Shown here: positions 17,101 to 50,027 of the stretch, piece after piece | Layout of the letters: each line of letters opens with the position of its first letter | Numbering within the stretch: the stretch's first letter is position 1 | DNA from: Pocillopora verrucosa | Lineage: Eukaryota; Cnidaria; Anthozoa; Scleractinia; Pocilloporidae | Assembly: GCF_036669915.1 (NCBI RefSeq) | Contig: NC_089312.1 | Location: 19,374,317-19,438,316, forward strand | Direction of reading: 5' to 3' | Length of the DNA: 64,000 nucleotides | The notes under the pieces: generated by a model | Database searches by the model: none | What the model saw: only the letters and a program-made list of their open reading frames with translations | Told to the model about the DNA's origin: nothing | Made by a program: the position numbers and the translations under genes

Positions 17101-20100
17101 TACGACCTATACGTAAGAAAACAAAAAAATATACATTCGCCACAACACTTACATCTTGTTACATTAACTGCGACATTCAACAAGGAAAAACGTCGACATT
17201 AACATTGTTCGTGAATGATCGATTCAGTTCTAACAATATTAAAAGCACCCTATGCTTACCAAAAACATGTCACTGGTGCGTCTTAACAGCTCAGCATTTC
17301 TTATGAATGTCTCATAGCAATTAGTCTTCTGCAATGAAAGAATCAACATCACTGACACTACAGTTTTTACAGTTACTTCAGGTATGATCCTTTTATGATC
17401 ATGATAGGAAAAAATTATTATATTCTGCAATTGTCTAGCTCCATTCTCTGTTTGTTTTATTGTATAAAAATCACTTGGTAACAGCAACAAAGATCCAAAA
17501 GGAATGGAAAAAGACAGGGTGAGAAAACCTGCAAGAGGATATGTAAGGAGGTAAGAGAATTCCCATATAAATTTTGTTGGATTTTAAACAATTTAAACAT
17601 CAATTCAATGACACACTTTTCTTTAATGGAAATTTTTTCAATCCAACTAACTTCTCATCTTCTTATGTTTCAAACTATGGCAATTTTCTTGAAACAAAGC
17701 AAAACCAACAGTGCATTGCTTACCATATTAAGATATTATTTGTGCAATGTACAACCCAACATTGTTTATGCATTCTGCAGCATAAATACTCCATAACTAG
17801 AAAGTATTACATGAATTATTATAGAAATCAAAAGCCACACTATCTAACACAATCAATGTAACATCTTTAATGAAATGCTGCTCATAGTTTGAATGGATAT
17901 TTTTTAAATGTTTCTGAAAAAATGCAAACAGAAACACTTTCATATTACTTCTATCTTCAGCCCTTTACAGATCTTCAAAACATTCTAAGACCGACAATCT
18001 TGCAGAATATTTCAAAGACAGATCTTTTATACTGTAATATAAATTTTGCCAAAGTTTGCCTGAAATTGTGTATGGTGGTGAGAAGTTCTTACCTTATTAC
18101 TGGGTAGCCAGACTCCTAGAGGATCCAGCCACGTTGGAAGAGATGATTGATTCTGACTCCTTGTTGGTCTTCTGCAACTTTTGCTTGGAGACGGTGATTG
18201 TGCAGGAGTGCGATATGGTGCAATATCACCAAAGTAAATGCTACTTGTTCCTTCAAGAAGTCCATTGCTCTCCCTTGAACATTCCTAGAACAATTTAAAA
18301 GTAAAGAACAGTCATTTGTAAATCAGGACTCAAGAGAAAGCTACATTTAAATAGTGATTAGAGTAATCATATGAGATTATCCAAAGGAACCTCAATTGTA
18401 TGAATTTCTTTGCAATTTAAGGGAATCTTAAAATTTTAAATTCAATCTTAAGACTTTTGGCTTTCATCAAGATTCATAAGAAAGCAAACGTATCCCTGAG
18501 GACTAGCCCATGATGTACCAGTAACAACTGAAGAACTGAGAGTTCTGCAAGCTCCCTCTCTGTCTTCTTCTTAATCTTTTCAATTACAATCAGATTTCCC
18601 TTAATTGTCATATTTTAGTAGAATCTTAACAAGGACAATGTCCTATCCCCCTTCAATCATTAGTCTACTAATGAAAGTCATGTGTTACAAGTGCATGTAC
18701 TGACTGCTGACTGATAGAAGGCAAACCTAAATTTAAGTTTTGCCGCTGCAACTCTGAAATGGTGGTAACAAGAGAGAGTTAAATTATCAAAAATTACATT
18801 TATAATTTTGGAAATAAATTTTGTCATTGCCCCAAAGTTAATACACACCATTCTTAGAATTCTTATGTAAATCATCTAGATTTTTTTACATATTTTTACT
18901 ATTGTTGACCTCTTTATTACTTTTTTAAGTTTTAGTTTGTAAACTGAGAGATTTCATAAAAAAGGTTGTGGTTATTCATCATGGTGAATAACAATAAAAG
19001 CTAAGTTTTCCGTTTGTCTCATGATGTAGTCATGTGTGGTGTAAATTGCAACATTTCAACTGCATACTTCTAGTCTTCTTCAAGCAAATGACAATGTGAA
19101 GAAGACTAGCATTATGCAGTCGAAACATCACGATCTACATCACATGTGACTACATCGTGAGACAAATGGAAAACTTAGCTTTTATTGTTAATCTAAGAGA
19201 TATAATTTTTTATCTAGAGAAGAATTATGGAGACTACCAATACTACATCTAAGCTTAATTATCCATGCATTTTTAATTGCTTCGTAGTAATCCTCTACTG
19301 GAGGACAGACACATTGATGACACCACCATGAACAACTCTTTGCTTTTTTATTTCACATAGTATGTGTTGAGCTACTAACTGTGTTTTGATGAACAAGAAA
19401 GCAGTTTAATCAACTCTGTTTCATTATGGTGGCTGAGAAAGGAGAGTTACATGCTGAGTTTCTTCTTAAAATATAAGAAGGTCAATATGGAATGAATTCA
19501 GTTTATTGACCTTCATCTGTTCAACAATGGATCATAACAGATATCAAACAGCAGTGATACACTTGACTGCACCTTGTATGCCATTTTCCTATTTTTACCA
19601 CATTTTGATGTCATCAGTAATCTCTAGAATAGCAACAGCCCAACATGGGACCTCCTTAGACTCTAAAAACTTAATTTAATCTGTTATGATCCATTGTTGA
19701 ACAGATGAAGGTCAATATGGAATGAATTTAGTTTATTGACCTTCATCTGTTCAACAATGGATCATAACAGATATCAAACAGCAGTGATACACTTGACTGC
19801 ACCTTGTATGCCATTTTCCTATTCTTACCACATTTTGACGTCATCAGTAATCTCTAGAATAGCGACAGCCCAACATGGGACCTCCTTAGACACTAAAAAC
19901 TTAATTTGCAAAATACTAACCCACTGGGATGACGATATTTTAAGAAGAAACTCAGCATGTAACTCTCCTTTCTCAGCCACCATAATGAAACAGAGTTGAT
20001 TAAACTATATGCCAAAATTTTCTGCTTTCTTGTTCATCAAAACACAGTTAGTAGATCAACACATACTATGTGATTTTCTCAGCCACAAATTTAGAAATAA

Positions 20101-20928: not shown

Positions 20929-21344
20929 TTTGACTGAGCCTTGACCACCAATTAATATCAAATTAAGCCATCACGAATTTGCTTACATTCGTACAACTTG
21001 GTTGCTAATGAAGCTAGGCCAGGTTACCTAGCATAATTAAATTCCTCCACATGCCGTCGTTTGGTTAATATTTACAATTCAATTAGATTAACCTCAAAGT
21101 CATTATCCGATCGTGAAAAGTCAGCTGACATGCTCTGGGTCTGAGACTTCACTGATATTAGAATGTCTGCCCTTTCTTCTGAAGAGCCGGTGAATGAGGT
21201 AAAAACGGAGGGAAACCGCGCGATCCGCCTCTCAAACGTAAGTGTTGTCATTTTTTGGTTGCCGCCAAGCCGATATTGCACCAATATTTGTTGATCGATA
21301 CAAGCTCTCAAGCGGGAAGTACAAAAGGTAAGTTTCCCTGAGCG
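20929..21344. promoter_or_regulatory. Divergent intergenic region, likely shared promoter
   Basis: Only 416 bp separate the start codons of the minus-strand discoidin/EF-hand gene (20928) and the plus-strand JIP1-like gene (21345), so their promoters must overlap or lie in an upstream exon. Two strong plus-strand donor sequences (caaac|gtaagt near 21236 and aaaag|gtaagt near 21329) hint at alternative non-coding first exons for the JIP1-like gene. No TATA box could be assigned. Confidence 0.45.
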
Positions 21345-24300
21345 ATGCTAAATTCGGCAGCCTCTACATTAGTGGACTCTGATCTTGCAAGAACAGGTGA
21401 AAGAGAAACAATTGGTCGAAACATAACTTCACTGTACGGGAATGCGAAGAACAATACAGAAACCCTGAAGGAACAATTGGAAACTTTCACCATTAAAAAC
21501 AAAGATGTGTTGAGGGATCACAGAGATAAAATGACAAGCCGAACTTCGACCGTAGAAGAAAACGGACATGTCAAGCAGTCTCGAGATGTCGGAAATGTCT
21601 CCGAACAAAAGATAATGAGTCCAAAAACAGAAAGAGGAAGAAGACTCTTACCAGCAACTCCAAAGTCACTTTATTTATCCCAGAGTCCAGTGACTCCGTC
21701 GATTAATTATTCAGCTGAAATTGTGACATTAAAATCCAAACGACTGAGTACGTCCTCATCACGAAGCAGTAATACTTCTTTATCTTCGGAAGATGACCTC
21801 GGTAGATCGAAAATCAAACAAACCCACATTGCGCTTTATAAGTTCGTGGCCCGACACGACGACGAAGTTAGCTTGGAAACTGGAGATGCGGTTCATGTGA
21901 ACAAGAAGGATGAAGATCTGTGGTTCGTAGGGATTAATTTGCGGACCGGCGAATCAGGAATTTTCCCATCTCGCTACGTCTCTGATATTTTGCGAGAAAG
22001 CGACGTTCAAGGTTAGAGTGATATTCTTGTCAGAAAAATAGCTCGGGTCTAACATTCAACTCTATTTTCTTTGTTTAACTTTGAAAAGAATGAAACAATT
22101 TCCTTTCAGCTTTTATGGATTAGGAAACAATGGAAATAACAACAAATAGCAAATAAGTGATAACCAGCTTCCTAAAATGAATGAAACATATAATTATGTA
22201 GGTGGTAACTTCTTTATTATTCAAATTACTGCCATCAACATCGGTGTTGTCGTCATTACAAACAAATAAATGGATTGCATGCTAGAGAGCCTTTCTAAAA
22301 ACAGACGTTGATTACGTAATAAAGGCAAAGCATGTTTGTTCAAAAATTACACTTTTGTTGCTGGCCCAAAGCAAGCAAATTTATCATAACTCGATTTTTC
22401 TAATAAATCAAACTCTCAAAGTGATCTCAATTGAAATTTTTTTTGGTTAAGAGTCTTCATTGACTAATATTAGTTAACAATTATTCATTTTCACCGACAT
22501 TAAGGTGAATAATTGTTTTAACAATACACCAGACTAGAGCCAGAAAAATGGTCGGAAATGAAGTTCTTGAGGGGCTATTTTCCTCTGGCAGCTTGGAGAT
22601 TCATAGCACTAACTAATCACTTGCGAGGCTAAATTTTGCCACTACTATGATCAAGACTAGAAATATAAGTCAGCAAATTTTGAAAAAAAATAAGTTTACA
22701 AAAATAATTATTTAATTCTACTAAGAGCATATATGATCTAAACATATATATTATAAATAAAGCAGTCAGCAAGACATATTTTCTACTCTTTCAGACAATT
22801 CCAAAAGAGGTACACAAGTGAATCAGTTCAGTGTCAGGTATGTACAATGTAACATTTGGGTGTAAAATGGAAAGAGAAAGCATCTTTAATTTCAAATATA
22901 GCAAGTGTACTATCTCTATATTTACAATATAGGTTATAAAATGATTCCAAGTTTTATTTATAATTAGAGAGTATTGTCAGGTAAACTCTTCTAGGATTGA
23001 AAAAAAATCAGCAAGAGCTCATTGTGGTCTTTATAAGTGGATTTTTGGAGTGTAATATTAAAAAGATATTGCTTAAGAAATTATTACACATCAGTAATGT
23101 ACATATTACTTTGTACTGTTTGGGATTAGTTGACCAGATTGATATGCTCTCAGTTAAAGAGCGTGTTAACACTTTAGCAGATGAAAAATGAAAAATTTGT
23201 CAAGGAGTTGTTTCATTTAGAATGAATTAGAAACCTAAGAACTGAAAAATGATTTGTTCTCAGTAATCATTTTCTTCTGGGCCACTTATCATAAGTTCTT
23301 TTTTAATTGAATTTGGAATTGACATTCCATTGAATTGAACTTGAATATTTAATAAACTAAAATTGAATTATCTTTGATGTGCGATCAAATTTCATGGCTC
23401 TGAAATTTAATATAATTAAATAATAATTTAATTAAGCATTGAATGTTACCTAATGGTCTATCACATACCACCTATGGTTAGCCATTTGATAATAATTACT
23501 AAATAAGCAGTACAGAAAATACTAATACAGTTATCAAGTCTGTTAAATGTAAAAAACCTCAGTGGTAATCATTGTATAAAGAACCTCTCAAGAGCTTTGA
23601 CCCAAGATTTTAATTTTTTATGGGGTTTTGTTACATTATTAAGGTAGACAATGCTCTTACTCAATTTAATTTCAATTTTCACTTTCCATGTGCATGAGCT
23701 CATAGAGATGTAAAAGAAACAGTGCTGGACATGAAGAAAAGCCATTGAAATCATTTTGTTACAATTTTTTTCTTAACTGCAAAATATATTGAGTGATTAA
23801 GTTTATGAAATCAATGTAAACATCTATTGAACACTTTTCTGGAAGGAACTTTATGTTTCTTGTTTTCATACTCTTAAGATTTCTCGGATCAGTTGAAGTG
23901 AGTGGCTTCAAGGGAAATGATATCATATGTGATGCTATGAGAGAGGTATGCTTGAGTTTTTTGCCAGTGTTATTACAGTTTGTTTTCTTTCTTTTTTCCA
24001 TTTGAAAGGATTCATCTCTGTATCTCAAAATCTTTAAAAACATCAGATCCTTCTGATACCTTGTAAAAGCAAGTGATAGATGAACACCAGTCCTTTGCTT
24101 GTATGATCCATCCTTACTGAACCTCTCACTTGTTTTTTCTTTTATTCCCCCCCCCCCCCTGAAAAGAACTGCCAGGCTGTTTTGAAGACTATCAGCTACT
24201 TTCAAGAATCCTGCTTGCACCCATTGCATTCATAAATGCATAAATTTTACAATTCAACAGGCCTTTGTATAGGTTGTGTAACATGGTGTACCTTTGATGT

Positions 24301-32659: not shown

Positions 32660-33754
32660 TCATACGGACGAAGTATAAATAATGGGGGCGTTTGGAAGCT
32701 TAAAGTACGGCTTTTTTGTTGAATTATCGCAGTTTTGTTGTTTTAGGGATACGTTGTTGTTTGTCTTTCGCCGTTCGTTAACCATTTGAATATTCAAGCA
32801 CCTTTGAAGCATGGCCGCACATGTTTTACTCCAATTGTGTCGTATCACAGTGCCTCCAAAAATAAATGGGTCCACTAAACTGTTGAAATACACCAAAGCG
32901 TTCGCAAACACCAGTACATCTCCAAAATAACTCCAGTGAGCACCATTTCCGAAGTCAGCCCATAACCACATAATGTGATAGGGTAACAAGCACAGGGAGA
33001 ACGCTACAGCACCGAACAAAAACGTTTTCACAATAATGACATTCGTCCTTGTTCGCTGCCTCACCAGCCTTCGGAACGACTGATTTCCAGCACCTTGTTT
33101 AATGCTGAATCGTTTCATCTTTTTTCCGTCAGAGTACAATCTGAATCCAATGCAAATGTATGCCGGGGCAATAATACACAGAGGCAGAGAGTAAAAGAGT
33201 AGAAAAACACACATAGTGAACATTTTTGGATAGTTCTCACTTGGCCACGCTTCGGTGCACTGTAGCTGTTCGCGTTTATGTTCAAGAACAACGATGTAAG
33301 GTGACACAAGAGCACCAGATATGCACCAAACAGCGGATATCACAACCTTAACCATTCTTTTTGTTATCATTGGCTTGAAAGGTGTCACAATGGCCCGATA
33401 TCGCTCGATGGCCATGCATGTCAATGTTGCAACTGAAACTCCTATTAAAGCCGTCTGAAATGGGTACACAACTTTACACATGAGGGCTCCAAATGGCCAA
33501 CGCTGGATTAAAATTTCGGCCATATCTAACGGAATCCCAACTGCACACGTCATGAGATCGGTAAAAGCCAGATTCAGCACGAAATATTCGCTGGGGCTTC
33601 GTTGTTTTTTTCCCAGCAGTGCACCATACAACAGTAAATTTGCAACAGTCCCGAGGATTGTTATGAGCGCATACGATGTCACTTGCACAATTGTTACTGT
33701 CCCTATATCTGAAGCTCCTGTCGAATTTGGCTGCGTCTGGTTTGAGTTCATCAT
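32660..33754 (-). CDS. Class A (rhodopsin-like) GPCR, peptide-receptor type, intronless
   Basis: A single exon of 364 residues, starting at the ATG at 33754 (tandem Met-Met); the open frame runs further upstream but without an ATG. Seven hydrophobic segments are visible. The N-terminus has two N-glycosylation sequons (NQT, NST). TM1 has Asn in VANLLL and TM2 has LAFTD. The expected Cys follows an RWPFG loop, TM3 ends in ERY (variant of DRY), TM4 carries VWCISG, and loop 2 has the partner Cys (QLQCTEAW). TM5 has Pro, TM6 is LCLLPYHIMW, and TM7 is NSLVDPFIF, a variant of NPxxY. The C-tail is Asn/Lys-rich. The FxxCxxPYH-type TM6 is typical of neuropeptide receptors (NPFF/QRFP/galanin-like groups), so a peptide ligand is inferred. 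The subfamily cannot be settled by eye. The protein acts at the plasma membrane through G proteins. Confidence 0.9.
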   Translation of the reverse strand: MMNSNQTQPNSTGASDIGTVTIVQVTSYALITILGTVANLLLYGALLGKKQRSPSEYFVLNLAFTDLMTCAVGIPLDMAEILIQRWPFGALMCKVVYPFQTALIGVSVATLTCMAIERYRAIVTPFKPMITKRMVKVVISAVWCISGALVSPYIVVLEHKREQLQCTEAWPSENYPKMFTMCVFLLFYSLPLCIIAPAYICIGFRLYSDGKKMKRFSIKQGAGNQSFRRLVRQRTRTNVIIVKTFLFGAVAFSLCLLPYHIMWLWADFGNGAHWSYFGDVLVFANALVYFNSLVDPFIFGGTVIRHNWSKTCAAMLQRCLNIQMVNERRKTNNNVSLKQQNCDNSTKKPYFKLPNAPIIYTSSV

Positions 33755-35814
33755 ATTTTCTGTTTTATCAAAGTTAGTTTTTGCAAAGAGAATCAAGCTC
33801 CTAGTTCCTCTACAGTCTGTGCAACAGCAATTAGTCTTTTAAGGGCTACGAAATTTAAGCTAGCGTGAATAATTACCGTATAGCTCGACTCTCGTGTAAT
33901 CTTGAACCAAAGTTCAGTTGTGTGGAATTGCATAAGACCTCTGTTAAAATGCTTCTCTATTCTGCGATAATATTCCCTGAAGGCATATCACATTAAAATT
34001 GTTCGATGTAGGTGCTGATGTTCTCAATCACCTCACCAATGGGCTCAAAAATGGACTATTAATGCACTCCCCATTAAGAGTTTTTTAAGCATTTTCCCTT
34101 GCCACATATGCCCTGACGTGACGTAAATTGGACTCCATTCACTGTTTTGAAAACTGTAGCCTAATTAGGCGCTTTGACGAAGGAAAAGATTAGAAACGAG
34201 TGGGTGTGGTTTCGTATGACAGTGACGGCGATGTCCATAAGCAAATGCTCATTACTTTTCACAAGGTTCTGTTAAGAGCAGAGCAAGACACCAGAAAAGA
34301 TTACTTTCTATTTTTGATATTGAAATGGTGACTTAATCTTCATTTTAAAGCGCACTTAATGATAAATATTGGTCCGTGCACCTAGTGACACGCGTGAGAA
34401 ATTGTTTATCGTGAGTGGTTAACCGCAAGATTGAGCGAAGACTAACGTTGGAGTAGTGAGGGGGAAGATAAACTCTCTTATTTCCCTTTTCACCCACTCG
34501 TCTTCGAATTATATTTTATATTTTCCTTTACATGATCAAGGAAACTGAGCTCCACCGGCTTAGTGATATCGCTTCAACAACATAACATCGAATAAGAGTT
34601 CTTTTTAAAGGTGTTTACCTCAACTTAGTAACCCTTTATCACGTAATTATCGCCGCATGGTGCAGAAAATTGCCGAAGGTAAAAATGTCACACAGTCGTC
34701 TCTAGCAATAAATTAGTCTTTTGCAGTAGTAACTGAATTAATGCCGGAAAAGAAAAGTATTATTCCCCAACGAAGTATTTTGAAGAGTGCAATGTTTCGA
34801 TACAATATTGACCTTTTGACTTGACGGCAAAAACAAGTGTAGCAGCCGATAAATTGTTAATCTATCCGATTTAAAACACGGTGTAGTTTGATTACGACAA
34901 ACGAGCGCCCCTGACTTTATATTTTGGATTACTTGCACTATGCATGATACATATGGTTACCTGCCATTTCCTTAGTTGTTGTGTTTTGTTACTAACCTTT
35001 CATAATGCAAAAATATGATATAATATTCTTGGAAAGTAATCGAATTAAAAACACCAATGCGTCGTCTATCTGGTGTTTCGTACTTCGTTTGGATTAGACA
35101 TATTAGGAGCTTGTGTACGTATATAACTGTCAGAACCACTTCGCTCTCCCTGGGCAACAATTAGCACAACTCAAACCAAAACATCTGTAGAAAAGTCCAC
35201 GAATTGAGGGAGCAACTATTCTCTTGTGACGCACGGAAGAGAAGGATTGAGAACGAGGGAGAAATAACTAAAAAAAACTTAAAAACACGGAAAAATTGAC
35301 AAAAATGCATGGGGTATGCAATAGACAAGAATAATCATTTTGCTTTCGGCGTGGTCATGAATGGTATTCCTAATAAAGTGAGAACCGTTAATAACATGAA
35401 ATTTGTGCAATACAATATGTTTGATGCTGAGCCTAAAGCCGACTGAACCATAGCCTAAGTCAGGCGCTTGATCAGTGAATACGCAGTGAGCGAAAACGAC
35501 AAAAAATTGATCGCAAAGCATGATCGGCCATCATCCATGAACTGGTTGAGAATTATCACACTTTAGAGAAATTGTGTTGTCAACCTGTCAAAGAGTTTTA
35601 TTGTTATGAATACCAGAACTGAAGAAGGAGTTGTACTTTAAGAAAAAGAAACCAAAATTTCCACTCATTCATTGGCCACATATTTCCTTCACTGTAAAAT
35701 CTTGATCAAAGACCCCCCTCCCGCAAATATAGATTCCACGAAAGCAAGTTGACAGTTATCAAATTAACATCATTATCATGAAAAAAAAGAAAAGTCCTCA
35801 TTCCACTTTAAGTT
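33755..35814. other. Intergenic stretch between GPCR and acidic-repeat gene
   Basis: No coding exon or strong repeat is recognised. The part beside 33755 is expected to contain the GPCR promoter, and the part beside 35814 the 3' UTR of the acidic gene; neither can be delimited from sequence. Confidence 0.35.
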
Positions 35815-38800
35815 TCAGATTTCCTCCAAATTATTTTCAAACTCATCGAAAGTGTTTTCATTGTTGTCATTCCACCATGCAGTTTCTATGCCTTCATTAT
35901 TATTATGAACTCCAAAGCCTCCAGAACCCTCCTTGTCATCATCATCACTCCACTCTGTATCCTCAAATTGCGCGTGATGCTCCACAAATTTAGGGACGTT
36001 TCGAATATCTTCGGTATCTGGATCTGAAGCTTCGGTTTCTGGAAAGTCGTCTCTAGCATCGAGAGCACCTACGATATCTACAATCGTTTCGAATTAATTG
36101 TCAATATCATCTACGTGATGATTTGAATCTAAAATCTCATTTGATTCACCTTCAGAAGAGGAGTCATCAGCATTTCTTTCATTCTGTTTGGAATGTTCAC
36201 TTTCATAAGGGTCGTCCTCAGTGCCGAAAGAGTAGTCATCTTCATTCTGGTCCCAATCTCTATCATCAGAACCACCTTAGATACATAAAGAGTCATTAGC
36301 AAAATCTTCTTTATGATTCGAATCACCCGTACCTTGGAGCTCATCTTCTTTAACAAAGCTTAACATCAAAATCGAAAGAGTCCTGAGTATCATCCTCTTT
36401 CTGGTTCGAATCTTCATTTTCAACGAGCTCCTCTTCGATACCAGAGTAGTCAATTCTATCATCATCATGGTGATCAAGGTCTTCCGTTCCATCAAATTCA
36501 CCTTTAATGCCAAGAGCTCATTACTTTTGGCGTTATTGAGAGAGAAATCCTAACTTTCATGGAACTTACCCTCACTATCAATAGAGTCATCACCACCGTC
36601 ACTCCACTCGATATCCTCATAGCCATTTGGCTCACCTTTAGCACAAACAGAGCCGTTAGTATCACCTTAATTTTGACGTCAATCACCATAACAAAGTTTT
36701 CTGAGGCTTACCTTCACTATCAATGAGGTCATCATCCTCACTGTCCCTCCACTCGATATCTTCATCACCTTCTAGCTCACCTTAAGCACAAGGAGAGTTG
36801 TTAATATAATTTTGATTGCAATGTTAATCTCCATGAAAAAGTTTTCTGAGGCTTACCTTCATTATCGATGAGGTCATCATCCTCACTGTCTCTCCACTCG
36901 GTATCTTTATCTTCATCCGGCTCACCTTTAGCACAACAAAAGCCATTTGTATCATCTTAATTCCGATGTCAAACTCTATGTTACTTTCATAGAGCTTACC
37001 TTCACTATCCATGAAGTCATCATCTTCACTGTCCCTCCACTCGGCCTCTTCATCGCTATCTCGCTCACCTGTAGCACAAAGAGAGTTGTTAATATCATCT
37101 TAGTTCCGATGTCAATCTTCATGATAAGTTTTGGAGAGTTTACCATCGTTATCAACTTGGCCATCATTGTCACTCTCTTTCCATTCGACATCTTCATCGA
37201 CATCCTGCCCACCTTAAGCACAAAGATAGTCATTTGTATCATTTTAATTCCGATGTCAATATTCATGTTCCTTTTATAAGGCTTACCTTCAATGAAGTCT
37301 TTATCTTTATTGCCACTCCACTCGACATCTTCATTGTCATTTAGCTCACCTTTAGTACAATGACAGCCTTCAGTTCATCTTAATTTCAATGTAAATCTCC
37401 ATGAAAAAGTTTTCTGAGGCTTACCTTCATTATCGATGAGGTCATCATCCTCACTGTCTCTCCAATCGGTGTCTTTATCACCATCCGGCTCACCTTTAGC
37501 ACAAAGAGAGCTGTAAGTATTATCGTAATTCTGATGTGAACTTCGTGATTAGTTTCATTGGGGTTACCTTTACTATCAATAGAAATGTCATCATCGTCAC
37601 TCCACTCGAGATCCTCACCGCCATGTGCCTCACCTATAGCACAAAAAGAGTTGTTAATATCATCCTAATTCCGATGTCAATTCTCATGAAAAGTTTTATG
37701 GGACTTACCATCACTATCGACTAGGTCATCATAGTCACTGTCTCTCCATTCGACATCTTCATCGCCAGCCGGCTTGCCTTTGGCACAAAGAAAGCCATTT
37801 GTATCATCTTAATTCCGATGTCAAACTCCATGTTACTTTCATAAAGCTTACCTTCACTATCCATGAAGTCATCATCTTCACCGTCTCTCCAATCGGCATC
37901 TTCATCGCTATCTCGCTCACCTGTAGCACAAAGGGAGTCGTTAGTATCATCTTAAATCCGATGTTAATCTTTAGGATAAGTTTCGGGGAACTTACCATCA
38001 TCATCAACGAGGTCATCATCGTCACTGTCTCTCCATTCGACATCTTCATCGCCATCCGGCTCACCTTTAGCACAAAGATAGTCAATTGTACTATCTTAAC
38101 TCCGATATCAAACTTCATGTTACTTTCATAAGGCTTACCTTCACTATCGATGAGGTCGTCATCTTCACTGTCTCTCCAATCGGCATCTTCATCGCTATCT
38201 CGCTCACCTGTAGCACAAAGGGAGTCGTTAGTATCATCTTAATTCCGATGTCAATCTTCATGATAAGTTTCAGTGAGCTTACCATCGTTATCAACGAGGT
38301 CATCATCGTCACTGTCTCTCCATTCGAGATCTTCATTGCCATCCTGCTCACCTTTAGCACAAAGATAGTCATTTGCATCATCTTAATTCCGATGTCAATC
38401 TTCACGTTACTTTCGTAAGACTTACCTTCACTATCAATGAGGTCATCATCTTCAATGTCTCTCCACTCAACATCTTCATCGCCATCTGGCTCACCTTTAT
38501 AACAGGGAGAGTCGTTTACATCATCTTGATTACGATGTGAATCTTCATGGTAACTTTCATTAGGTTTACCTTCACTATCGATGAGGTCATTATCTTCACG
38601 GTCTCTCCCATCGGTATCTGCATTGTCATCCGGCTCACCTTTGGCAAAAAGAGAGTCGTTAGTGTAATCCTAGTTCTGATGTGGTATTTATGATTTGTTT
38701 CATAAGGGTTACCTTCACTATCAATAGAATTATCATCACTGTTGTTCCACTCGATATCTTCATCACCATCAGTCTCACCTGTAGCACAAATAGAGTTGTT

Positions 38801-41800
38801 AATATCATCCTTATTCCGAAGCCAATTTTTATGATAAGTTTCATGAGGCTTACCATCACTATCGTCGGGGCCATCATCTTGACTGTCTCTCCACTCGACA
38901 TCTTCATCGTCATCCTGCTCACCTTTAGTATAAAGAAAGCCGTTTGTATCATTTCAATTCCGATGTCAAACTCCATGTTACCTTCATAAAGCTTACCTTC
39001 ACTATCGATGAAATCACCATCTTCACTATCTATCCAATTGGCATCTTCATCGCTATCTGGCTCACCTGTAGCACAAAGAGAGTCGTTAGTATCATCTTGA
39101 TTCCGTTTTGAATCTTCATGATAAGTTTCATTAGGCTAACCGTTACTAGCGACGAGATCATTACCGTCACTGTCTCTCCATTCGACATCTTCGTCGTCAT
39201 CCGGCTCACCTTTAGCACAAAGATAGTCAATTGTACTATCTTAACTCCGATATCAAACTTCATGTTACTTTCATAAAGCTTACCTTCACTATCCATGAAG
39301 TCATCATCTTCACCGTCTCTCCAATCGGCATCTTCATCGCTATCTCGCTCACCTGTAGCACAAAGGGAGTCGTTAGTATCATCTTAAATCCGATGTTAAT
39401 CTTTAGGATAAGTTTCGGGGAACTTACCATCATCATCAACGAGGTCATCATCGTCACTGTCGCTCCATTCGACATCTTCATCGCCATCCGGCTCACCTTT
39501 AGCACAAAGATAGTCAATTGTACTATCTTAACTCCGATATCAAACTTCATGTTACTTTCATAAAGCTTACCTTCACTATCCATGAAGTCATCATCTTCAC
39601 CGTCTCTCCAATCGGCATCTTCATCGCTATCTCGCTCACCTGTAGCACAAAGGGAGTCGTTAGTATCATCTTAAATCCGATGTTAATCTTTAGGATAAGT
39701 TTCGGGGAACTTACCATCATCATCAACGAGGTCATCATCGTCACTGTCTCTCCATTCGACATCTTCATCGCCATCCGGCTCACCTTTAGCACAAAGATAG
39801 TCAATTGTACTATCTTAACTCCGATATCAAACTTCATGTTACTTTCATAAAGCTTACCTTCACTATCCATGAAGTCATCATCTTCACCGTCTCTCCAATC
39901 GGCATCTTCATCGCTATCTCGCTCACCTGTAGCACAAAGGGAGTCGTTAGTATCATCTTAAATCCGATGTTAATCTTTAGGATAAGTTTCGGGGAACTTA
40001 CCATCATCATCAACGAGGTCATCATCGTCACTGTCTCTCCATTCGACATCTTCATCGCCATCCGGCTCACCTTTAGCACAAAGATAGTCAATTGTACTAT
40101 CTTAACTCCGATATCAAACTTCATGTTACTTTCATAAAGCTTACCTTCACTATCCATGAAGTCATCATCTTCACTGTCTCTCCAATCGGCATCTTCATCG
40201 CTATCTCGCTCACCTGTAGCACAAAGAGAGTCGTTAGTATCATCTTAAATCCGATGTTAATCTTTAGGATAAGTTTCGGGGAACTTACCATCATCATCAA
40301 CGAGGTCATCATCGTCACTGTCTCTCCATTCGACATCTTCGTCGTCATCCGGCTCACCTTTAGCACAAAGATAGTCAATTGTACTATCTTAACTCCGATA
40401 TCAAACTTCATGTTACTTTCATAAAGCTTACCTTCACTATCCATGAAGTCATCATCTTCACCGTCTCTCCAATCGGCATCTTCATCGCTATCTCGCTCAC
40501 CTGTAGCACAAAGGGAGTCGTTAGTATCTTCTTAAATCTGATGTTAATCTTTAGGATAAGTTTCGGGGAACTTACCATCATCATCAACGAGGTCATCATC
40601 GTCACTGTCTCTCCATTCGACATCTTCATCGCCATCCGGCTCACCTTTAGCACAAAGATAGTCAATTGTACTATCTTAACTCCGATATCGAACTTCATGT
40701 TACTTTCATAAAGCTTACCTTCACTATCCATGAAGTCATCATCTTCACTGTCTCTCCAATCGGCATCTTCATCGCTATCTCGCTCACCTGTAGCACAAAG
40801 GGAGTCCTTAGTATCATCTTAAATCCGATGTTAATCTTTAGGAGAAGTTTCGGGGAACTTACCATCATCATCGACGAGGTCATCATCGTCACTGTCTCTC
40901 CATTCGACATCTTCATCGCCATCCGGCTCACCTTTAGCACAAAGATAGTCAATTGTACTATCTTAACTCCGATATCAAACTTCATGTTACTTTCATAAAG
41001 CTTACCTTCACTATCCATGAAGTCATCATCTTCACTGTCTCTCCAATCGGCATCTTCATCGCTATCTCGCTCACCTGTAGCACAAAGGGAGTCGTTAGTA
41101 TCATCTTAAATCCGATGTTAATCTTTAGGATAAGTTTCGGGGAACTTACCATCATCATCAACGAGGTCATCATCGTCACTGTCTCTCCATTCGACATCTT
41201 CATCGCCATCCGGCTCACCTTTAGCACAAAGATAGTCAATTGTACTATCTTAACTCCGATATCAAACTTCATGTTACTTTTATAAAGCTTACCTTCACTA
41301 TCCATGAAGTCATCATCTTCACCGTCTCTCCAATCGGCATCTTCATCGCTATCTCGCTCACCTGTAGCACAAAGGGAGTCCTTAGTATCATCTTAAATCC
41401 AATGTTAATCTTTAGGATAAGTTTCGGGGAACTTACCATCATCATCAACGAGGTCATCATCGTCACTGTCTCTCCATTCGACATCTTCATCGCCATCCGG
41501 CTCACCTTTAGCACAAAGATAGTCAATTGTACTATCTTAACTCCGATATCAAACTTCATGTTACTTTCATAAAGCTTACCTTCACTATCCATGAAGTCAT
41601 CATCTTCACTGTCTCTCCAATCGGCATCTTCATCGCTATCTCGCTCACCTGTAGCACAAAGGGAGTCGTTAGTATCATCTTAAATCCGATGTTAATCTTT
41701 AGGACAAATCTCGGGGAACTTACCATCATCATTAACGAGGTCATCATCGTCACTGTCTCTCCATTCGACATCTTCATCGCCATCCGGCTCACCTTTAGCA

Positions 41801-44800
41801 CAAAGATAGTCAATTCTACTATCTTAACTCCGATATCAAAATTCATGTTACTTTCATAAAGCTTACCTTCACTATCCATGAAGTCATCATCTTCACTGTC
41901 TCTCCAATCGGCATCTTCATCGCTATCTCGCTCACCTGTAGCACAAAGGGAGTCCTTAGTATCATCTTAAATCCGATGTTAATCTTTAGGATAGGTTTCG
42001 GGGAACTTACCATCATCATCAACGAGGTCATCATCGTCACTGTCTCTCCATTGGACATCGTCATCCCCATCCGGCTCACCTTTAGCACAAAGATAGTCAA
42101 TTGTACTATCTTAACTCCGATATCAAACTTCATGTTACTTTCATAAAGCTTACCTTCACTATCCATGAAGTCATCATCTTCACTGTCTCTCCAATCGGCA
42201 TCTTCATCGCTATCTCGCTCACCTGTAGCACAAAGGGAGTCGTTAGTATCATCTTAAATCCGATGTTAATCTTTAGGATAAGTTTCGGGGAACTTACCAT
42301 CATCATCAACGAGGTCATCATCGTCACTGTCTCTCCATTCGACATCTTCATCGCCATCCGGCTCACCTTTAGCACAAAGATAGTCAATTGTACTATCTTA
42401 ACTCCGATATCAAACTTCATGTTACTTTCATAAAGCTTACCTTCACTATCCATGAAGTCATCATCTTCACTGTCTCTCCAATCGGGATCTTCATCGCTAT
42501 CTCGCTCACCTGTAACACAAAGGGAATCGTTAGTATCATCTTTAATCCGATGTTAATCTTTAGGATAAGTTTCGGGGAACTTACCATCATCATCAACGAG
42601 GTCATCATCGTCACTGTCTCTCCATTCGACATCTTCATCGCCATCCGGCTCACCTTTAGCACAAAGATAGTCAATTGTACTATCTTAACTCCGATATCGA
42701 ACTTCATGTTACTTTCATAAAGCTTACCTTCACTATCCATGAAGTCATCATCTTCACTGTCTCTCCAATCGGCATCTTCATCGCTATCTCGCTCACCTGT
42801 AGCACAAAGGGAGTCGTTAGTATCATCTTAAATCCGATGTTAATCTTTAGGATAAGTTTCGGGGAACTTACTATCATCATCAACGAGGTCATCATCGTCA
42901 CTGTCGCTCCATTCGACATCTTCATCGCCATCCGGCTCACCTTTAGCACAAAGATAGTCAATTGTACTATCTTAACTCCGATATCAAACTTCATGTTTCT
43001 TTCATAAAGCTTACCTTCACTATCCATGAAGTCATCATCTTCACCGTCTCTCCAATCGGCATCTTCATCGCTATCTCGCTCACCTGTAGCACAAAGGGAG
43101 TCGTTAGTATCATCTTAAATCCGATGTTAATCTTTAGGATAAGTTTCGGGGAACTTACCATCATCATCAACGAGGTCATCATCGTCACTGTCTCTCCATT
43201 CGACATCTTCATCGCCATCCGGCTCACCTTTAGCACAAAGATAGTCAATTGTACTATCTTAACTCCGATATCGAACTTCATGTTACTTTCATAAAGCTTA
43301 CCTTCACTATCCATGAAGTCATCATCTTCACTGTCTCTCCAATCGGCATCTTCATCGCTATCTCGCTCACCTGTAGCACAAAGGGAGTCGTTAGTATCAT
43401 CTTAAATCCGATGTTAATCTTTAGGATAAGTTTCGGGGAACTTACTATCATCATCAACGAGGTCATCATCGTCACTGTCGCTCCATTCGACATCTTCATC
43501 GCCATCCGGCTCACCTTTAGCACAAAGATAGTCAATTGTACTATCTTAACTCCGATATCAAACTTCATGTTACTTTCATAAAGCTTACCTTCACTATCCA
43601 TGAAGTCATCATCTTCACTGTCTCTCCAATCGGCATCTTCATCGCTATCTCGCTCACCTGTAGCACAAAGGGAGTCGTTAGTATCATCTTAAATGCGATG
43701 TTAATCTTTAGGATAAGTTTCGGGGAACTTACCATCATCATCAACGAGGTCATCATCGTCACTGTCTCTCCATTCGACATCTTCATCGCCATCCGGCTCA
43801 CCTTTAGCACAAAGATAGTCAATTGTACTATCTTAACTCCGATATCAAACTTCATGTTACTTTCATAAAGCTTACCTTCACTATCCATGAAGTCATCATC
43901 TTCACCGTCTCTCCAATCGGCATCTTCATCGCTATCTCGCTCACCTGTAGCACAAAGGGAGTCGTTAGTATCATCTTAAATCCGATGTTAATCTTTAGGA
44001 TAAGTTTCGGGGAACTTACCATCATCATCAACGAGGTCATCATCGTCACTGTCTCTCCATTCGACATCTTCATCGCCATCTGGCTCACCTTTAGCACAAA
44101 GATAGTCATTTGTATCATCTTAATTCCGATGTTAATCTTCACGTTACTTTCATAATGCTTACCTTTACTATCGATAAGGTCATCATCTTTAGTGTCCCTC
44201 CACTCGACATCTTTATCGCCATCTGGCTCACCTTTAGAACAGGGAGAGCCGTTTACATCATCTTGATTATGATGTGAATCTCTAGGGTAATTTTTATGAG
44301 GCCTACCTTCACTATTGATGAGGTCATTATCGTCACTGTCTGTCCCATCGGTATCATCATCGCCATCCGGCTCACCTTTGGCAAAAAGAGAGTCGTTAGT
44401 GTAATCCTAGTTCTGATTTGGAATTTATGATTTGTTTCATAAGGGTTACCTTCACTATCAATAGAATTATCATCACTGTCACTCCACTCGATATCTTCAT
44501 CACCATCAGTCTCACCTGTAGCACAAAGAGAGTTGTTAATGTCATCGTTATTCCGATGTCAATTCTCAGGATAAGTTTCATGGGGCTTACCATCACTATC
44601 GACGGGGCCATCATCGTGACTGTCTCTCCACTCGACATCTTTATCGTCATCCGGCTCACCTTTAGCACAAAAATAGTCATTTGTATCATTTTAACTCCAA
44701 TGCCAAACTCCATGTTACTTTCATTAAGCTTACCTTCATTGTCGATGAAGTCATCATCTTTACTGTCTATCCAATCGGCATCTTCATCGCTATTTTGCTC

Positions 44801-46875
44801 ACCTTAAGTACAAAGAGAGTCCATAGTATCATCTTAATTCCCATGTCAATCTTCATGATAAGTTTAGTGGGTCTTACCGTCGCTATCCACGAGGTCAATA
44901 TCGTCATTATCTCTCCATTTGACATCTTCGTCGCCGCCCAGCTCACCTTTAGCATAAAGAGAGTTATTGCATCATCCTAATTGCGATGTCAATCTTTGTG
45001 TTACTTTCATAAGACTTACCTTCATTATCAATGAAGTCATCTTCTTCACTGCCACTCCACTCGGCATCTTCATCGCCATCTGGCTCACCTTTAGCACAAT
45101 GAGAGCCGTTAGTATCATCTTTATTTCGATGTCAATCTCCACGAAAAAGTTTTCTGAGACTTACCTTCACTATGGATGAGGTCATCATCCTCACTTTCAC
45201 TCCTTTCGATATCTTCATCGCCATCTAGTTCACCTAGAGCATCAAGAGAAACGTTAGTGTCCTCCCTCTCTTTGGTTATTCAACATTATAAGTTTCGTGG
45301 AACTATCTGGGGCTCCCCTTTAGTACTAAAGGTAACATAAGTATTATTCTTATTCTGATAAAAAAATTTTGAGTTTCAGGAAGCTTACCATCAGAATAAT
45401 CACTGTGCTTGTCCTCAATACCGAAGTAATCATCAGGATCATCATTGTTTTCAGTTGAGTCTTCAGTTCTATCGAGTTCACCTTAAATACCAAGAAGGTC
45501 ATTAGTATCGACGTTATTGACATATAAATTCTCATTTTCTAGCTCACCATCAGCATCGCTAGACTCATCACGATCACCGCCACTTAACTCAGCATCTTCA
45601 TCGACATCCGGCTCACCTTTAACAAAAAGTTAGCTGTGAGTGCTTTAAGCAGGGATATCATTAGCATCAGTGTCATTCTCATATAAACCCGTACTTTCAT
45701 GGGGCTTACCTTCACTGTTGATTAAGTCATCACCGTCGCTCCACTTGGCATCTTCATCGTCATTGGGCTCACCTTAAGCACAAAGAGGGTTATTAGTATC
45801 ATCTTTACTCCGATGTGGATTCTGCGTGATAAGTTTCATGGGGATTGCTTTAAGTACTTAGGGATTCATTTGTATCAACGTCATTGTCAATGTCTGTTGT
45901 ACGGAACTTACGCTCACTATCGATAGAGTGATCATAATCACCGTCTCTCCACTCTGCGTCTTCATCGTCATCCAGATCACCTATAGCACCAAGATAGTCA
46001 TTAGTATCATCTCAATTCTGATGCTAATCTCCAAGGTCGTGGGGGCCTACCTTCACCATCGATAGAGTCACCTCCTTCTTTGTCTCTCCACTCGGCATTT
46101 TCGTTGTAATCATCACCGTTAGTCCAGTTGGCTTCTTCATCGTCATCGGCTCCACCTTTATCATGCAAAGAGTCGTTAATATCATCTTCATTCGGGGGTG
46201 GATCATTTTCGGGGTACCTACCTTTAATGCTAGGGAAGTCATTACAACTGTAGTATAATCCTCACTCTGGTATATATATTCAGTGTCATGAAGTTTACCG
46301 TCAGAATCAAGAGCTACATCATTGTAAGGTTATTTATAAGGTGATGTTAATGACTCTTAGTTCCGAGAGTACGTTAAGAATTCAATGACTTATGCATAGC
46401 GTCTTCATTTCAACCTGAATCCTCAGAGTCACCGGGTCACTTTCATTGTCGAGACATGAATCTTCAGGCTCATGGGGCTTACCTTCATAATCGAAAATGG
46501 CATCAATATCATTTTCTTTCCACTCGGAATTCTCAGAGTGATCGGGAACACCTTCAAAATATTCTGAGTCATCATGATTATTATCATCGTTTTGACTCAT
46601 ACCTTTGTTATCAATGTCATCTTCTATTTGACGATAGTAAAAAGCATCATCTTTATTCCGATCTGAAATATCAATGTCTTCACCGTAAAGGGAAGACTGG
46701 TCTTCGGATGATTCATCGATCTTTTCTTCGTCTGTGCTTTTCTCTTCATCAATAGATCTAAAATAATCATCTGGTTCTTCGCTTTCTTTGAACGCTCCTT
46801 CTGTGCCACGGGCAATTTTATCAGGAGGGTGTTTCATGTCCTGTAGAATTCCTGTATCGAGGAACAGAAGTCTTC
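35815..46875 (-). CDS. Giant acidic (Asp/Glu-rich) repeat protein built from tandem mini-exons
   Basis: Transcript order: exon 46875-46483 (unique, acidic), a tiny exon near 46.3 kb, exon 46221-46051, then about 65 mini-exons from 45980 to 36570, then 36501-36442, 36275-36150 and a terminal exon 36066-35815 ending in TGA. All mapped exons are phase 1-1 (codon split G|GN), so each can be added or lost without a frameshift. A typical mini-exon is 69 bp and codes for 23 residues of one of two types, EPDGDEDVEWRD... or ERDSDEDADWRD...; together 27 of 46 residues are Asp/Glu and only 3 are Arg. The last exon is unique (DTEWSDDDDKEG, ending NNLEEI). The protein has about 1800 residues. The 5' end is unresolved: no clear first exon or signal peptide was found upstream of 46875, and one small junction near 36.35 kb is uncertain. 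Composition recalls coral acidic skeletal-matrix proteins and other Ca-binding polyanions; this is inference only. Confidence 0.75.
36570..46221 (-). repeat. Tandem array of about 65 exon-intron modules (about 143 bp each)
   Basis: Each module is an acceptor ending in tgtgcta(c/a)ag or a variant, a 69-bp exon, a gtaag donor and an intron of about 75 bp. Exon starts on the plus strand recur at about 143-144 bp, for example 36712, 36857, 37000, 37144, and again 45020, 45165. Most exons are 69 bp. Exceptions are 63 bp (37287-37349, 45710-45772), 66 bp (36570-36635, 37568-37633, 38713-38778, 44450-44515), 93 bp (45389-45481) and 171 bp (46051-46221), all multiples of three. The plus-strand open frames across the array are antisense by-products. 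Confidence 0.9.
39284..44088 (-). repeat. Homogenised 287-bp dimeric unit, about 17 copies
   Basis: Here two module types alternate strictly: plus-strand exon starts at 39284 + 287n (type A) and 39428 + 287n (type B), up to 43876 and 44020. Copies differ by only a few substitutions each, in introns as well as exons, so they were amplified or converted recently as two-exon units. The same 287-bp register continues, with more divergence, back to 37852. Confidence 0.92.
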
Positions 46876-48985: not shown

Positions 48986-50027
48986 CAGTAGGAAACCCAA
49001 GGAATGTTTACCTACCATCATTTAGTAGTGGTTTTGATCTTGGAATGGGCCGAGCATTGATTCCCAGTTGTGTCGACACAACCAAGAACACAATCCCGAC
49101 CCACAATTTCATTTCTCCTTGTAGGAAATCTCTCTTATAAGAAAATTTTGTCTCCGCACTGCAACTCAACTCCTAATGTGAAGAAAAGTTTCGCAATACT
49201 AATTCTACGTCACAATAACGAATTAGTACATTTGACGTCGTGCCTCGTGAATTAAATAATTACAAATAATGGAGATCACCTCATCTCCCTGTAAATCAGT
49301 AATTGCCGTAAAGTCAAGGTCGCTTTTTGTAAATTTTGAACAGTAATGATAGTACCGCTAAGGCTATGTAAACAAAACGTTAGCTTTGGAGTCTTTCTTT
49401 AAAAAAGGCCTTACCGCCTTGTTTCAAAAGTAGAACGCTGCGCGCGCAAAATGCTGCGTGCATTATACCGCCGAAAGAACGGAGAGGTACTTTTCCCTAA
49501 TTTCCAACACTTAGGCAAGACAAGAGAAGTAGCAAGGTTTTTTTTTTGGCATTACTGCTACCATATTATCGCACCTACATGTCGTGTCAATCAGTCTGCC
49601 AACTTGAACAGATGATCTTGTTCGATTCACTGCAGATGAAGATGAAACAGTCTGGAAATGAGTTGTCACAGTGGTGTAGCTTTTTAGAATGAAATTCTGA
49701 GATGCATACAAAAAGCCAAATAAGCGAGTAGATAACCAAACTGCGGGTTTTTTGTTACACCAAAAATAGAATACGGGGCGTATTGCCTTGATGACGATCA
49801 CTGGTAGTTCTTCTCTTTCACCACGATCTTTCAATGATGTAGCAAATAGATAACCCGAATATCTACAGCGCAATTTAACTCTAAGCAACGCGGAAATCAC
49901 CCCATTCGCTTATCGCACCGTTGAAATGGACAATCATAACAGTTGACTAACGAGACTTTACCAGTTCATCTGTGTCTAGGCAGTTAAAAGATTGTGGATA
50001 ACAGCGCATTTCTAAATTCAAAAATTT
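48986..50027. other. Non-coding 3' flank of the polytopic membrane protein gene
   Basis: This follows the stop of the minus-strand membrane-protein gene. A 129-residue open frame on the minus strand (49511-49900) has no domain, no membrane pattern and no splice support, and is probably within the 3' UTR. Nothing else is recognised. Confidence 0.4.

Follow-up and report, generated by a model that had tools for sequence, protein, structure and literature searches.

On the minus strand of a 64,000-nucleotide (nt) stretch of the genome of the stony coral Pocillopora verrucosa (C1:19374317-19438316; here called the window, with positions counted from its first letter) lies a gene built around a chain of 65 short, regularly spaced exons encoding acidic units. 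By all sequence tests it is a real and unusual coral gene. As modelled, it comprises 71 exons with a coding sequence of 5520 nt, whose sole stop lies at its end, and specifies 1839 residues. The anatomy is a model drawn from genomic DNA, for which the minus strand was inspected at 38500-35500 and 50000-44800, and it is firm except at the ends of the array. The parts of the gene, in the order of transcription, are as follows.

49016..49112, minus strand: coding part of exon 1, also present in a paralog; encodes the leader MKLWVGIVFLVVSTQLGINA followed by RPIPRSKPLLND and ends in a phase-1 donor, gtaggt
46483..46875, minus strand: exon 2, unique and acidic; acceptor ambiguous, a further in-phase AG giving a start at 46851
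46051..46155, minus strand: acidic exon in which two segments resembling modules have merged; with another acceptor a start at 46221 is possible
36570..45980, minus strand: chain of 65 phase 1-1 mini-exons, 58 of them of 69 nt, from exon modelling and repeat finding
39284..44088, minus strand: homogenised core of 34 modules in the chain, alternating between subtypes A and B as a 287-bp dimer, from lag identities
39141..39209, minus strand: module with a weakened donor, gttagc, and a cryptic in-frame gtaatg donor 24 nt upstream
36442..36501, minus strand: first 3' cap exon, with a weak donor, gtatcg, from exon modelling
36150..36275, minus strand: second 3' cap exon, acidic
35815..36068, minus strand: terminal exon, containing DTEWSDDDDKEG and ending in NNLEEI before the stop TGA; a homologous exon exists in the paralog on contig C10
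35597..35602, minus strand: candidate poly(A) signal AATAAA, at a matching place in the 3' flank of the paralog

The mini-exons, which run from 45980 to 36570, measure 69 nt in 58 cases, 66 nt in four, 63 nt in two and 93 nt in one. All these lengths are divisible by three, and all 65 exons are stop-free, in phase 1-1 and preceded by an AG acceptor. The exon modelling required AG and GT, so the presence of the splice dinucleotides is partly by construction; the wider donor sequence is GTAAG in 57 mini-exons, GTAAC in three, GTAAA in two, and GTGAG, GTAGG and GTTAG in one each. GT also forms the first two letters of the exon itself in all but one of the 65. Read on the plus strand, none of the mini-exons has AG..GT flanks. 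Each encodes about 23 residues, of which 57% are acidic on average, and as a rule one Trp stands before an Arg; Trp is present in 60 of the 65, and the serine codon used in the array is AGT. Tandem Repeats Finder reports a 144-bp unit in 60.8 copies and a 287-bp dimer in 29.7 copies. Throughout 45088 to 36570 the introns keep to 73-76 nt, mostly 74 or 75 nt, with exons staying multiples of three, and the model has therefore skipped no unit there. Introns upstream of 45088 range more widely, from 66 to 155 nt, and those between 46155 and 45233 may hide decayed units. A preliminary description of this DNA had announced an array at this position and on this strand, composed of 69-bp segments that each carry an acceptor, an open phase 1-1 frame, a gtaag donor and a conserved W-R-D. 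The array, and the phase, acceptor and open frame of every module, stand as modelled; the length of 69 bp applies to 58 modules, the remaining seven having 66, 63 or 93 nt, the gtaag donor to 57 modules with eight departing from it, and W-R-D, found in 47, to most modules and not to all.

The introns of the chain do not generally double as coding sequence. Thirty of the 64 are divisible by three, and 27 of these carry in-frame stops, which led us to reject retention as a general coding option. The three that are both divisible by three and stop-free lie at 44306-44232, 38853-38779 and 38569-38495, and their retention would add 25 residues and not terminate translation.

Leader, module chain and stop-bearing terminal exon join in one modelled frame, in agreement with the earlier proposal of a single gene. 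The same proposal had unique acidic exons capping both ends: the clean terminal exon with its TGA is found as described, and at the other end the gene begins upstream of 46875, at 49112-49016, where a search for the true 5' exon located it. The joining of exon 1 to exon 2 is inferred from phase. Exon limits are uncertain between 46875 and 45389, as is the choice of donor for the exon at 36501. A long version of the exon at 46155, opening at 46221, was dropped because we judged its 5' portion to look like an intron of the modules (gtaggtacccc...gataaag). At 46221 itself an acceptor-like sequence abuts a donor-like one (attaaag|gtaggt), resembling a zero-length exon or a recursive splice site, and may represent a decayed module. 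At the 3' end, taking gttaagc as donor of the 36501 exon breaks the downstream frame, and gtatcg was adopted. Were the exon at 36442..36501 left unspliced, the frame would reach TAA just past DFDVKLC, giving a possible short C terminus.

The leader MKLWVGIVFLVVSTQLGINA, which the paralog conserves, looks like a signal peptide on visual inspection and in its hydropathy, and the 19-mer of highest hydrophobicity in the whole protein lies within it. If it is cut after NA, the mature chain has 1819 residues and a mass of about 208 kDa, with 35.3% Asp, 15.2% Glu (50.5% Asp+Glu), 8.5% Ser, 3.7% Trp and no Cys. Its computed net charge is about -802 at pH 7, which bears out the expected polyanionic protein, and on the charge-hydropathy plot it falls far into the disordered half. 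Beyond residue 21 the mean Kyte-Doolittle hydropathy exceeds 0.37 in no 19-mer, and no second hydrophobic segment was found; the predicted C terminus is ...NTFDEFENNLEEI. After residue 60 the Asp+Glu content falls no lower than 25% in any 40-mer, 27% in any 60-mer and 31% in any 100-mer, all three minima lying in the 3' cap exons, and the mature N terminus is the only less acidic 40-mer (12.5% Asp+Glu). A Pfam scan that covered exon 2, two cap exons (the last ones) and a four-module composite gave no match at E 0.01; the window has no Rfam match at the gathering score.

The divergence among modules bears on whether their reading frame is maintained. In 24 diverged 69-nt modules the proportions of synonymous (pS) and non-synonymous (pN) differences are 0.35 and 0.21, and the ratio of non-synonymous to synonymous rates (dN/dS) is 0.51 (bootstrap 0.37-0.72 by module, 0.35-0.76 by codon column). 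Module pairs whose introns are 50-70% identical (462 of 1540 pairs) average 81% identity in exons and 66% in introns, and the second codon position is the least variable in four of five identity classes of module pairs. Neutral simulations of the 24 modules (n=5000; star tree, a single intron-derived rate, substitutions only and no indels) left all 24 stop-free in 0.06% of runs, with a mean of 17.2; intact splice pairs averaged 12.6 of 24, with a maximum of 21, and never reached 24; acidity averaged 43%, with a maximum of 48.5%, against the 53% observed. The diverged modules have held their frame and splice sites far better than the neutral expectation, which shows selection on the frame. The terminal exon has a dN/dS of 0.47 between paralogs over 81 codons.

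Genome searches, which covered the 353.4-Mb assembly in its 52 contigs, reveal a paralog on contig C10 (C10:17503400-17514740). The leader exon has one other genome match, at C10:17514640-17514738, with 82% amino acid identity, and the terminal exon likewise has one, at C10:17503435-17503689, with 59% amino acid identity (E 6e-15). Between these two, and on the same strand as they are, lies an array of 144-bp units. The exon 1 region (49002-49234) is 88% identical to C10 over 234 bp; the terminal exon with its 3' flank is 70% identical over 758 bp, AATAAA standing at the matching place. Exon 2 has a single genome match, its own locus, with no second at E 0.001. Module searches, which scored only the best candidates, return only the window and C10 loci. 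After removal of three of 76 profile matches, which started beyond model position 60, 73 projected units remain in the C10 array. By simple criteria 48 of these pass, and the other 25, a number that includes caps and truncated matches, are broken or irregular. Among ten failing units that were inspected, some still read open although their acceptor and donor are gone, and others carry stops; related dead units recur with periods of 749 and 869 bp. At a position that reads TGG in the window gene, the terminal exon on C10 has an internal TGA. Of the two arrays the one on C10 looks older, and given its decay and this early TGA the window gene is the better-kept copy.

These comparisons speak to a reading in which there is no gene at all, the array being a satellite-like tandem repeat whose open frame is accidental. 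The core is indeed homogenised in the manner of a satellite, with identities of 0.94-1.00 between modules two apart, and a third of the projected units in the second array (25 of 73) fail simple criteria. Chance openness is nonetheless hard to reconcile with the neutral simulations, the dN/dS values and exon indels that are in-frame only, or with a paralog that shares a homologous leader, terminal exon and 3' flank. We consider the satellite explanation extremely improbable and close to excluded.

The distribution of identity along the array points to how it grew. Core modules at lag 2 are 94-100% identical, neighbours (lag 1) only about 75%, and the dimer is made up of two subtypes, EPDGDEDVEWRDSDDDDLVDDD and ERDSDEDADWRDSEDDDFMDSE; the 34 core modules amount to 11 distinct exon sequences of these two types. 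The flanks of the array are more diverged than the core which, together with the high lag-2 identity, implies an old array whose middle has recently undergone unequal exchange. Such uniformity of the core means that the assembly may not give the exact copy number, which is probably polymorphic. Exon and intron repeat together as 144- and 287-bp units, in line with the exon-intron tandem duplication suggested earlier, and the gene grew by tandem duplication of this combined unit, of 144 bp first and of 287 bp later. Since every mini-exon is in phase 1-1, units could be gained, lost or skipped with the frame left intact. We also considered a derivation of the intron from a duplicated exon, since both begin with GTRAGC, and comparison with shuffled sequences gave it no support at the DNA level. 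In four global comparisons of the consensus exon with the intron, 1071, 1572, 1408 and 1627 of 2000 shuffles scored as well; locally, 155 and 194 of 2000 shuffles reached the score with the 75-nt intron, and 1554 and 1622 of 2000 did so with the 74-nt intron. Summed over 27 diverged modules the score was 215, where 200 shuffles gave 186 on average and 231 at most.

Small symmetric exons strung into long chains are known from tropoelastin, the PEVK region of titin, nebulin, fibrillar collagens and spider flagelliform silk. In such genes repeat units are duplicated with their introns, and silk homogenises its units, introns included. The window gene matches this architecture (65 of 65 exons in phase 1-1), a likeness of architecture and not of kinship, and differs from these genes in repeating a single type of 69-nt exon about 65 times within 9.4 kb, between introns of mostly 74 or 75 nt. 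None of these proteins is known to be a polyaspartate-like polyanion.

An array of symmetric exons might also serve as a generator of splice isoforms, with different subsets of the 65 exons used in each cell. Every skip would keep the frame, all 65 exons being in phase 1-1, and one module (39141) has a weak donor. Skipping among 34 core modules with 11 distinct sequences of two types would, however, alter the length of the product more than its content; most donors fit the consensus (57 of 65 GTAAG, our sole measure of splice strength), and several units of the paralog have lost their splice sites in the genome itself. Such a generator thus appears improbable, and the very large isoform diversity anticipated by the preliminary description is not upheld, given two near-identical core types and the 57 consensus donors. 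Large isoform diversity is possible, with variation expected in length and not in kind.

Beyond the 3' end of the array the window holds an apparently intronless rhodopsin-family G-protein-coupled receptor gene (32660-33838, minus strand; Pfam 7tm_1, E 1.7e-47). An open frame with an SH3 domain lies at 21342-22016 on the plus strand (E 2.8e-12), and a 230-bp unit is repeated in tandem at 19477-19907 (1.9 copies, 97% match). The coral context supposed in the preliminary description is corroborated by the mitochondrial contig, which identifies the host as a Pocillopora stony coral. This 66-kb contig (C30) contains three cox1 copies 17.4 kb apart, with TGA read inside, and probably represents mitochondrial genomes concatenated during assembly. 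Gene names on it were assigned by reading open reading frames (ORFs); between the nad5 halves lie nad1, cob, nad2, nad6, atp6, an extra ORF of 247 codons, nad4, cox3, cox2, nad4L and nad3. Possession of an additional ORF at this place, flanked by atp6 and nad4, is a hallmark of Pocillopora, and the two barcode primers designed for it match the contig with 0 mismatches, in convergent orientation and about 0.98 kb apart. A second unassigned ORF of 178 codons, Glu/Asp-rich by eye, stands past the 3' half of nad5 (L004:1592-2128), and an apparent cob is split over two overlapping frames (L005:2686-3859), perhaps by a homopolymer error of the assembly.

On our analysis the biological role of the gene is plausible, and we judge it moderately probable that its product is a secreted, disordered, Ca2+-binding polyanion of the coral calcifying matrix. 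Judging from the genomic sequence, the 71 modelled exons would be transcribed and spliced into the message for an intrinsically disordered polyanion of about 1800 residues, whose signal-peptide-like leader suggests secretion. Jointly, the acidic units would, by their charge, form a very high-capacity, low-affinity binder of Ca2+ (and Mg2+), and the regularly spaced W-R pairs might act as weak 'stickers' between acidic spacers, allowing weak self-association. The likeliest site of action, from the organism and the resemblance to coral acid-rich proteins, would be the extracellular calcifying space. There the protein may concentrate Ca2+, stabilise amorphous precursors and steer crystal growth, as is thought for coral acid-rich proteins.

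The comparison with these proteins rests on composition and description. Coral acid-rich proteins are broadly defined as exceeding 100 amino acids with about 30% or more Asp+Glu, and can precipitate carbonate (PMC8086859); with 50.5% Asp+Glu over 1819 mature residues, the predicted protein falls within this definition by composition. In Acropora digitifera, acidic proteins that are secreted reportedly rank first among the skeletal proteins by spectral count (PMC4890752). SAARP1-3, CARP4/5 and P27/acidic SOMP resemble the window protein in coming from stony corals and in being Asp-rich; they are secreted, as the leader suggests for the window protein. In Acropora millepora, SAARP1, SAARP2 (a fragment) and the acidic SOMP are listed with 386, 390 and 359 amino acids, 9.9-21.1% Asp and isoelectric points of 3.9-4.2 (PMC4043741), and are far shorter than the window product, which has 1839 residues, 35% Asp and consists mainly of repeats. 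By hydropathy and C terminus the latter shows no match to membrane attachment of the kind seen in SAARP2/3 (transmembrane) or SAARP1 (predicted GPI anchor). SAP1 and SAP2 of Acropora are likewise Asp-rich, and are secreted and skeletal, as the window protein may be; their orthologs are reported in Acropora with none in Stylophora (PMC4890752). SAP1 carries an RGD motif (PMC4043741), which is absent from the window protein, the two being compared by description. CARP2, CARP3 and CARP6 of Stylophora are also acid-rich coral proteins. CARP3 is reported to steer crystallisation toward Mg-calcite (PMC13003918), and CARP2 and CARP6 are described as Glu-rich (PMC8086859), whereas the window protein is Asp-rich.

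A secreted polyanion need not be skeletal. The product could instead store Ca2+ or counter-ions in secretory granules, mucus or nematocyst capsules, or be a storage polyanion of eggs or larvae. The sequence has no feature specific to mineral surfaces, any secreted polyacid would look alike, and the silence of Pfam on the sequences scanned agrees with such roles. On the other side stand the calcifying habit of the host coral and reports of abundant acid-rich secreted proteins in the skeletons of corals (PMC4890752, PMC8086859); we hold a non-skeletal role to be possible, if rather unlikely.

Several observations weigh against a maintained protein of the calcifying matrix. The partly dead array of the paralog and its early TGA mean that the family may be dispensable. 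Constraint is not evident at every level: in the 194 module pairs with introns 97-100% identical, exons are 98.5% identical and introns 99.3%; core subtype B has a pS of 0 and a pN of 0.011, with 0.044 and 0.014 in subtype A, the core numbers being small and mixed; exon 1 differs between the paralogs with a pS of 0.106 and a pN of 0.090, without clear constraint; and for the 66 ungapped codons of the terminal exon the dN/dS of 0.49 has a bootstrap range of 0.20-1.09, which exceeds 1. In SAARPs and CARPs the acidic domains are separated by a shared, conserved region that is non-acidic (PMC4890752), and a block of the SAARP/CARP4-5 type is absent from the predicted protein by composition, every 100-residue stretch after residue 60 being at least 31% acidic. 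Five peptide words of both genes are unmatched in the text of open-licence papers, proteome tables lying outside this coverage. A description of the window gene was likewise not found in the open-licence literature, supplements being outside its scope, and the gene may correspond to an acidic coral transcript that is known but incompletely assembled.

Genes made of mini-exons may easily be overlooked by gene predictors. The paralog pair illustrates how an array of exon-intron units gains, homogenises and loses units while its frame can survive, conceivably through dead modules falling into longer introns. For a renewed search of skeletal proteomes the gene predicts tryptic peptides in multiple copies: DSDEDADWR in 18, DSDDDDLVDDDGER in 14 and DSEDDDFMDSEGEPDGDEDVEWR in 8. 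If it is expressed in calcifying cells, the protein would be far longer and more acidic than the acidic proteins listed for Acropora millepora (PMC4043741), and would offer a natural modular polymer, the length of which could be compared with skeletal properties across individuals and species. A wider proposal, which we advance as speculative and regard as unlikely on present indications, is that corals possess a family of giant skeletal polyanions in which the copies of a tandem array of coding exons and introns determine how many acidic units the protein has, a heritable and rapidly mutating dial. Protein length, charge and the valence of W-R stickers would shift in steps of one 287-bp dimer (46 residues); the dial would act on calcium condensation and skeleton nucleation, and splicing of about 65 similar exons would yield the final polymer.

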